Source of the DNA: Arthrobacter horti
GTDB taxonomy: Bacteria; Actinomycetota; Actinomycetes; Actinomycetales; Micrococcaceae
DNA: 64,000 bases
Reading direction: 5' to 3'
Assembly: GCF_030731045.1 (NCBI RefSeq)
Contig: NZ_JAVALS010000003.1
Location: 1-64,000 of the forward strand
Every line of letters starts with the position of its first letter. Position 1 is the stretch's first letter. The position numbers and the translations under genes are program-made. A model generated the notes under the pieces. It worked only from the letters and a program-made list of their open reading frames with translations, was not told the origin of the DNA and did no database searches. Positions 56,152 through 63,763 of this stretch are shown here, piece after piece.

Positions 56152-56207
56152 GTGCTCAGTTGTGGCGGCTTAAAGCGGTCAAATCCCGCCACAACTGAGC
56201 AGTCAAC
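56147..56207. repeat. Palindrome family C, copy 1
   Basis: GTTGAGTGCTCAGTTGTGGC begins the left arm (56147-56168); the right arm (56186-56207) differs at one position. The MFS stop codon is within the left arm. Left of the Vsr-like gene. Confidence 0.88.
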
Positions 56208-57212: not shown

Positions 57213-57274
57213 GTTGAGTGCTCAGTAGTGGCGACTTGTGGGGCGCCGAAGCCGCCACAACTGAGCACTCAACG
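57213..57274. repeat. Palindrome family C, copy 2
   Basis: Left arm GTTGAGTGCTCAGTAGTGGC from 57213, right arm GCCGCCACAACTGAGCACTC to 57274, with a divergent loop. It lies directly after the Vsr-like gene. Confidence 0.88.
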
Positions 57275-62288: not shown

Positions 62289-62666
62289 TCAGGCGAAATT
62301 CCCCAGCTCCAGCACCAGCCCGCCGGGCGTGCGCACGAAGGCCGCCCGCTGGCCCCATTCGCGGTCGGCCGGCTCGCGCAGCGTCTCGGCACCCGCGGTG
62401 ACGGCCTGCTGGAAGGCCGCGTCGACGTCGTCGGCCACGAAACTGAGCACACCGGTGATGCGGTCCGCCTCCGCGGCCGCCAGCGGCTGGCCGGGCAGGT
62501 GATTCCCGGCGGCCTCGAGGGTGCCGAAGGCCAGTTTGGTGTCGCCCGTGGCGACTTCCGCATAGCCTTCCCCGTACACCTGTGCTTTCAACCCGAAGGC
62601 GGCGGTGAAGAACTCGGCGACGTCCTTGGCGTTGGAGACGTAGAACATGCTCTTGGCGTAGCGCAT
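62289..62666 (-). CDS. VOC-fold protein, ECF41 target
   Basis: A 125-residue glyoxalase/bleomycin-resistance-like protein: MFYVSNAKDVAEFFTAAFGL, GVLSFVADDVDAAFQQAVTA, GQRAAFVRTPGGLVLELGNF. The ATG at 62666 has AAGGAG 5 nt upstream. It is the only gene downstream of the left-facing ECF41-type promoter, so it is the likely target of the sigma factor encoded beside it. A detoxification or resistance role would be usual. Confidence 0.85.
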   Translation of the reverse strand: MRYAKSMFYVSNAKDVAEFFTAAFGLKAQVYGEGYAEVATGDTKLAFGTLEAAGNHLPGQPLAAAEADRITGVLSFVADDVDAAFQQAVTAGAETLREPADREWGQRAAFVRTPGGLVLELGNFA

Positions 62667-62714
62667 TGGAAACTCCTTGAAACCGATACGGGCGTTTCCC
62701 GCATTCACCCTCTT

Positions 62715-62741
62715 GACGCCGGTGCCGCCGCGAATGTGACA
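62715..62741 (-). promoter_or_regulatory. ECF41-type promoter of the VOC gene
   Basis: Read leftwards: TGTCACA (62741-62735), 16 nt, then CGTC (62718-62715), which is the published ECF41 consensus with exact spacing. It would start the mRNA some 40 nt before the VOC ATG. Confidence 0.75.
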
Positions 62742-62769
62742 TGGCCACGGGGATTGTTCCGAAAAGTGC

Positions 62770-62796
62770 GGTCACATCGGCGTGCGCTGAAACGTC
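62770..62796 (+). promoter_or_regulatory. ECF41-type promoter of the sigma factor gene
   Basis: GGTCACA (62770-62776), 16 nt, CGTC (62793-62796): one change from the ECF41 consensus with exact spacing. It would make the sigma factor gene self-activating. Confidence 0.65.
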
Positions 62797-62813
62797 AGAA
62801 GGGCATGAACACC

Positions 62814-63695
62814 ATGGAGAACGAGCTGGAGCTCGCCACGCGTTTTGAGCACGAGCGGCCCCGCCTGATCGGGATCGCCTCACGGATCCTCGGGGCATCC
62901 GGGCCCCTCGGCGCCGAGGACGCCGTCCAGGAGGCCTGGTTCCGGCTGGCCCGCACGGCGGAGCCGGAGATCGAGAGCCTGCCCGCCTGGCTGACCACCG
63001 TGGTCAGCCGGATCTGCCTGGACGCGCTGCGCTCCCAGGCACGGCGCGATTCGCTCGCCGAGCAGCTCGCCGACCGTCTGGACGAGGCCATTCCGGGTCC
63101 GGAGGAACAGGCCCAGCTGGACGATTCCCTCAGCGTCGCACTGCTGGTGGTTCTGGACACGCTGAGCCCGGCCGAGCGGGTGGCGTTCGTCCTGCACGAC
63201 CTGTTCGGCGCCCCCTTCGAGGACGTCGCGGCCGCCACGGGCCGCACCTCCGCCGCGGCGCGGCAGCTGGCCAGCCGTGCCCGACGGCGCGTGCGCGGGC
63301 AGGCGCCCATGGTCACCACGGAGGCGGACGACGACGCCGGCGACGCCACCGCGCGGGCCCCGCGCGACGTCGTGCTCGCCTTCATGGAGGCCTCCAAGGG
63401 CGGCGACCTCGCCACCCTGGTGAAGCTCCTGGACCCCGAGGTGGTCATGACCTCGGACGACGCGGCCGCCGCGATGGGCTCCCCCGCCCTCAAGCTGGGC
63501 CGCGACGAGGTGTCCGGATTCTTCAACGGCAAGGCCAAGGCCGCGCGCTTCGCGATGCTGGGCGGCGAGCCGGGCCTGGTGTGGCAGTACCGCGGCGTGG
63601 TCCAGGTGGCGTTCACGTTCCAGCTGCGTGGCGGCGTCATCCACGCCGTCCGCCTGATCGGGGACCGGGAGGAATTGGACCGCCTGACGGCCTGA
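62814..63695 (+). CDS. ECF41-like sigma factor with SnoaL-like C-terminal domain
   Basis: A 293-residue SigJ-type sigma factor. Region 2 is ATRFEHERPRLIGIASRILG, GAEDAVQEAWFRLAR and SLPAWLTTVVSRICLDALRS. Region 4 is VLDTLSPAERVAFVLHDLFG, FEDVAAATGRTSAAARQLAS. The C-terminal 110 residues (VVLAFMEASKGGDLATLVKL, ending RLIGDREELDRLTA) are a SnoaL-like domain, which in ECF41 proteins replaces a separate anti-sigma factor. The WLPEP linker typical of ECF41 is not recognisable (AIPGPEEQ is present), so it is a divergent member. The ATG at 62805 is an alternative start. Both sides of this gene carry ECF41-type promoters. Confidence 0.85.
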   Translation: MENELELATRFEHERPRLIGIASRILGASGPLGAEDAVQEAWFRLARTAEPEIESLPAWLTTVVSRICLDALRSQARRDSLAEQLADRLDEAIPGPEEQAQLDDSLSVALLVVLDTLSPAERVAFVLHDLFGAPFEDVAAATGRTSAAARQLASRARRRVRGQAPMVTTEADDDAGDATARAPRDVVLAFMEASKGGDLATLVKLLDPEVVMTSDDAAAAMGSPALKLGRDEVSGFFNGKAKAARFAMLGGEPGLVWQYRGVVQVAFTFQLRGGVIHAVRLIGDREELDRLTA

Positions 63696-63700
63696 CTGCG

Positions 63701-63763
63701 CGTTGACTGCTCAGTTGTGGTGGCTTCCAGGCGGTATATCCCGCCACAACTGAGCACTCAACG
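63701..63763. repeat. Palindrome family C, copy 3
   Basis: CGTTGACTGCTCAGTTGTGG begins the left arm (63701-63723) and CCGCCACAACTGAGCACTCA begins the right arm (63741-63763). No Vsr-like gene is adjacent. It lies between two convergent genes. Confidence 0.88.

Follow-up and report, generated by a model that had tools for sequence, protein, structure and literature searches.

Near the end of the 64,000-nt stretch of Arthrobacter horti DNA analysed here (referred to as the window; contig NZ_JAVALS010000003.1, positions 1 to 64,000), a gene of the VOC (glyoxalase/bleomycin-resistance) superfamily lies divergent from an ECF sigma factor gene, raising the question of which sigma factor transcribes this pair and whether the adjacent one serves both its neighbour and itself. 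The VOC gene (62289..62666, minus strand; PF00903) encodes a protein of 125 aa and is the probable target, and the sigma gene (62805..63695, plus strand) has its first ATG at 62805 and a second in-frame ATG at 62814. The 138-bp region between them contains two sites matching the motif TGTCACA-N16-CGTC (spacing 16 ± 1) that Wecke et al. (2012) reported for ECF41 sigma factors (PMC3426412). The ECF41-type promoter facing the VOC gene (62715..62741, minus strand) reads TGTCACA TTCGCGGCGGCACCGG CGTC from 62741 to 62715, with its –35 box at 62741-62735 and its –10 box at 62718-62715. The one facing the sigma gene (62770..62796, plus strand) reads GGTCACA TCGGCGTGCGCTGAAA CGTC from 62770 to 62796, with its –35 and –10 boxes at 62770-62776 and 62793-62796, respectively. 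Both spacers measure exactly 16 nt, and the two promoters lie back-to-back with 28 bp between them, confirming the divergent motif pair proposed in a first-pass annotation of this DNA. Among 20,000 dinucleotide shuffles of the intergenic region, the motif was present at all in 9 and on both strands in none. Because about one chance match is expected when the whole window is scanned with a looser motif (spacings 14-18), the weight is carried by the pairing, position and conservation of the two sites. A scan of the region found no sigma70-type promoters or intrinsic terminators, and an Rfam scan of the region yielded no match near any family's gathering score.

Conservation was examined in the three other genomes of the genus, which carry orthologues with 83-85% identity. 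In all four genomes, the GTCACA and CGTC elements of both promoters and their 16-nt spacings are invariant, and all three congeners keep the box pairs exactly. The ECF41-type identity of the promoters is supported. The spacers themselves have diverged (identity between the window and congener G003 at 7/16 and 4/16 positions), and the gap between the promoters is 28 bp in the window and 14 bp in the congeners. The pattern GTCACA-N16-CGTC occurs 7-13 times per genome in the genus and just 7 times in the 3.57-Mb genome of the window, where two of the seven occurrences belong to the VOC/sigma locus; the remaining three KGTCACA-N16-CGTC sites of this genome all fall inside coding ORFs. Of all these sites, only the VOC/sigma promoter pair is found at a corresponding locus in each of the four genomes, suggesting that the regulon probably consists of this pair alone. 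The genome scan that had been recommended for further motif copies thus revealed no wider regulon, in line with the single local target of ECF41 systems (PMC3426412).

For S. meliloti RpoE9, the transcriptional start was mapped 9 nt after CGTC (PMC3616915). Applied to the window, this distance predicts starts at about 62706 for the VOC gene (minus strand) and about 62805 for the sigma gene (plus strand), which are 99 bp apart. The latter position coincides with the A of the sigma gene's first in-frame ATG. All four genomes of the genus place this ATG 8 nt after CGTC, which makes a leaderless sigma mRNA probable. Most relatives have about 36 nt between CGTC and ATG, with a ribosome site included. 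The VOC mRNA, on the other strand, probably begins with a leader of 40 nt, in which a good ribosome site (AAGGAG) lies 6 nt before the ATG in all four genus genomes, and both leader and start are conserved across these genomes. A longer VOC reading frame from a GTG at 62708 was ruled out, because the congeners preserve the ATG at 62666 and its ribosome site but not that longer frame. Just downstream of the predicted VOC start, the leader contains a palindrome (ATGCGGG-N5-CCCGTAT; 62686..62704, minus strand) that has an exact match only at the VOC/sigma locus in each of the four genomes and could possibly be an operator or a hairpin. The fold energy of the VOC leader was no better than that of shuffled sequences, so that no RNA element is claimed.

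The sigma protein itself shows the two-domain core of ECF41 proteins, with Pfam matches to region 2 (PF04542, residues 11-78) and region 4 (PF08281, residues 109-159) only. Pfam returned no SnoaL match on its C-terminal part, but residues 176-292 of an AlphaFold model (mean pLDDT 86.5; pTM 0.47, which leaves the domain arrangement undefined) matched NTF2/SnoaL-like folds with a Z of about 10. Structure prediction thereby supports the SnoaL-like extension named in the first-pass annotation, of the roughly 100-residue kind seen in ECF41. Foldseek with the whole model gave M. tuberculosis SigJ (5xe7) as top match, and SigJ is also the best sequence match over sigma2, sigma4 and SnoaL. However, the window sigma scores 199.8 bits against the SigJ family model NF007214, under its curated cut-off of 271 bits, and has neither the linker motif nor the C-terminal motifs. 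Judged by pattern search, with canonical ECF41 paralogues as positive controls, WLPEP is absent from the sigma2-sigma4 linker (LAEQLADRLDEAIPGPEEQ; residues 86-94 predicted to be disordered) in all four genus genomes, as the earlier reading had noticed for the window. DGGG and NPDKL are absent from the window sigma as well, with DDAAA and GDREEL in their places. By its own motifs and its subthreshold score, the window sigma is therefore a relative resembling ECF41, not a textbook member of that group.

In a tree of 133 proteins (a quick tree with many weak forks), all 13 WLPEP proteins formed one clade with a support of 100, and the window genus was placed deep in a large WLPEP-free clade, near Granulicoccus and some members of the family. 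Other family members (L024-L043) form a related sigma clade that mostly has no upstream motif, and at many of these loci a small conserved gene encoding about 80 residues (cluster c2) lies next to the sigma gene. Within the genus, the SnoaL domain is 89-92% identical, as against 76-78% for sigma2 and 33-50% for the linker between sigma4 and SnoaL. The SnoaL domain is thus under strong constraint, even though its known contact motifs are gone.

From these sequence data and the predicted fold, we infer that the adjacent sigma factor very likely drives both promoters, in a one-target, positively autoregulated module whose SnoaL domain most likely modulates activity. The sigma factor (62805-63695) would bind RNA polymerase and recognise both promoters of the 82-bp region, and the resulting holoenzyme would transcribe the divergent VOC gene as well as the sigma gene. 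The SnoaL/NTF2-like domain would most likely tune this activity on a small-molecule signal, as proposed for SigJ and ECF41; with WLPEP, DGGG and NPDKL missing, its contact would have to use other residues. Because the sigma mRNA is predicted to be leaderless and the VOC leader to carry a good ribosome site, the basal level of sigma synthesis may be low, with a high output of VOC. Autoregulation, as put forward in the first-pass annotation, is probable. A set of 80 relatives from public genomes was picked by two peptide patterns and favours the clade without WLPEP, DGGG and NPDKL; in 69 of them the motif precedes the sigma gene. Against this circuit stand the missing motifs, which underpin the ECF41 model of intramolecular control, the closely related family clade with mostly motif-free sigma upstream regions, and the low pTM of the model.

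The distribution of the VOC gene offers a further view on its role as target. At E<=1e-15, VOC was found in only 7 of 295 family genomes. The four genus genomes and G030, a member of another genus, have it in divergent orientation to the sigma gene and carry motifs on either side. In G259, likewise from outside the genus, 240 kb separate the VOC homologue from the sigma gene of that genome. The motif is still there, as CGTCACA-N16-CGTC, 63 bp ahead of the VOC ATG, and the G259 sigma gene has a copy as well. A search at E<=1e-20 yielded no such sigma in G278, whose VOC homologue had no motif within the 4.5 kb examined. The proposed pairing of sigma factor and target is upheld by these two cases, since the unlinked VOC gene keeps the motif and the one without a sigma factor has none. 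Among the relatives of the same clade, the sigma neighbours are CMD, NmrA or VOC genes, and four of them (L049, L054, L066 and L086) have a VOC gene that points away from the sigma gene, the motifs lying in the region between the two. The nearest solved relative of the VOC protein is a mitomycin-binding protein, and the VOC protein might possibly sequester or detoxify a small molecule.

Much of this arrangement is known from the 2012 study, in which 36 sigma promoters and 41 COE promoters carried the motif among 55 divergent ECF41/COE loci, with both promoters present at most of these loci and the adjacent gene as sole target (PMC3426412). The window locus likewise has promoters on both sides of a divergent pair, a SnoaL-like extension on the sigma factor, a single adjacent target and no anti-sigma gene. 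However, the COE neighbours defining ECF41 are carboxymuconolactone decarboxylases, oxidoreductases or epimerases (PMC3426412), whereas the partner in the window belongs to the VOC/glyoxalase class, so that the claim of an agreeing neighbour gene family did not hold. The window locus further departs from ECF41 in the loss of WLPEP, DGGG and NPDKL and in the predicted leaderless sigma mRNA. With motif, spacing, dual promoters and sole neighbour target already reported in 2012, the locus exemplifies a known circuit in which both regulator and target are variants. A search of the main text of the 2012 paper turned up no glyoxalase targets, palindromes or overlapping promoters. In ECF41, partial truncation of the C-terminal domain raises activity and its full removal abolishes it (PMC3426412). 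The ECF56 factor SigG1 (7qh5, PMC7730460) resembles the window sigma in being a SnoaL_2-bearing ECF sigma that also lacks NPDKL, but differs in its promoter (CCG / CCCTCC, 17 bp), its long linker and its anti-sigma partner RsfG (PMC7730460).

An alternative that we regard as rather unlikely keeps the sigma factor as driver of both genes, but denies its SnoaL domain the role of inhibitory sensor; activity would be set by the amount of sigma, and a separate regulator would bind DNA at the VOC-leader palindrome or at another site. The joint loss of WLPEP, DGGG and NPDKL and the predicted disorder of the sigma2-sigma4 linker would fit a non-sensing domain, and a conserved, locus-unique palindrome just after the predicted VOC start would fit such a regulator. 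The SnoaL domain is nevertheless more constrained than sigma2, and the palindrome covers the VOC side only, with no cognate regulator identified.

A clearly less probable alternative is that a canonical ECF41 paralogue transcribes the pair and that the adjacent sigma factor is a regulated target instead of the regulator. Such a paralogue is encoded in the same genome (G000:C3:79034-79885; L130, L169), behind an ORF that belongs to the CMD cluster. It has WLPEP, DGGG and NPEKL (for NPDKL), passes the SigJ cut-off with a score of 301.9, and its operon carries a nearly identical promoter, TGTCACA-N16-TGTC, upstream in three of the four genus genomes. However, congener G002 (99% complete) has no canonical paralogue and yet keeps both promoters exact, which makes the adjacent sigma factor the better candidate for transcribing the pair. 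The –10 boxes differ as well, with TGTC for the paralogue in all three genomes having it and CGTC for the VOC/sigma pair in all four. Given the similarity of the paralogue promoter, cross-talk between the paralogue and the VOC/sigma promoters is possible.

Slightly less probable still is that the VOC protein is more than the output and helps to sense the signal, for instance by acting as a soluble anti-sigma factor. Anti-sigma genes beside the sigma gene are the rule in other ECF groups, and G030 also keeps VOC beside its sigma gene; against this, the VOC homologue is unlinked in G259, Ecf41Bli was unaffected when the COE neighbour was co-expressed (PMC3426412), and relatives pair the same kind of sigma factor with unrelated CMD or NmrA genes. 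That the motifs are a mere coincidence of G+C-rich sequence is hardly credible, for although each genome has a few GTCACA-N16-CGTC sites at other places, the shuffles never reproduced the pair, the boxes are exact in four genomes with diverged spacers, and the motif recurs in most of the relatives.

Beside SnoaL-fused ECF sigma genes of relatives, two such motifs were also found facing each other in a symmetric element of 62 bp (TGTCACA-N16-CGTC-N8-GACG-N16-TGTGACA), which is present at 32 loci (L074 and 31 others) with hosts among Actinomycetota, rhizobia and one Acidobacteria MAG. The 5′ ends of the facing motifs are exactly 61 bp apart at these 32 loci, and only 4 of the 36 facing pairs have another distance. 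Because the spacers are not complementary, the element corresponds to two promoters and not to a hairpin. A genome-wide search of 295 family and 198 phylum genomes revealed 7 sites, each of the 7 immediately adjacent to a sigma gene from this clade, and reversed-pattern controls gave none in the same genomes. With starts 9 nt after CGTC, a single palindromic site would give two divergent transcripts whose first bases lie 9-10 bp from each other. The element in this respect resembles the bidirectional promoters of E. coli described by Warman and co-workers, which share one –10 element (PMC12825309), in its close divergent starts and mutually exclusive polymerase binding, both predicted. The facing arrangement is absent from the window genus, where the pair is back-to-back and the predicted starts lie well outside the spacing of about 10-23 bp that marks symmetric bidirectional promoters.

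A further reading, with the balance tipping slightly against it, is that the window sigma belongs to a large clade of SnoaL-fused ECF sigma factors in which the WLPEP-NPDKL lock was either lost or absent from the outset, so that control works by other means. The clade would be marked by the 62-bp element, from which one holoenzyme could start on either strand, towards the sigma gene one way and the target the other, and the window genus would be derived, with the element split into two independent promoters and a leaderless sigma transcript. The symmetric element of the relatives would then give a naturally occurring example in which opposite directions compete for the same holoenzyme. If the proposed circuit is right, the VOC/sigma locus would be a minimal two-gene self-amplifying switch without an anti-sigma partner, run by a sigma factor lacking the residues thought to restrain ECF41. 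It would add VOC proteins to the targets of the ECF41-type promoter class, and what SnoaL senses and how it controls the sigma factor could be tested in a single genome that encodes members of both kinds, those having the lock and those lacking it.

Directly after the sigma gene, at 63708-63756, lies a 49-bp inverted repeat (TGCTCAGTTGTGG...CCACAACTGAGCA, with variable middles) that is also found at 56153-56201 and is dispersed over the genome in 14 exact copies. A related repeat occurs at 57220-57266. The copy following the sigma gene may end its transcription.
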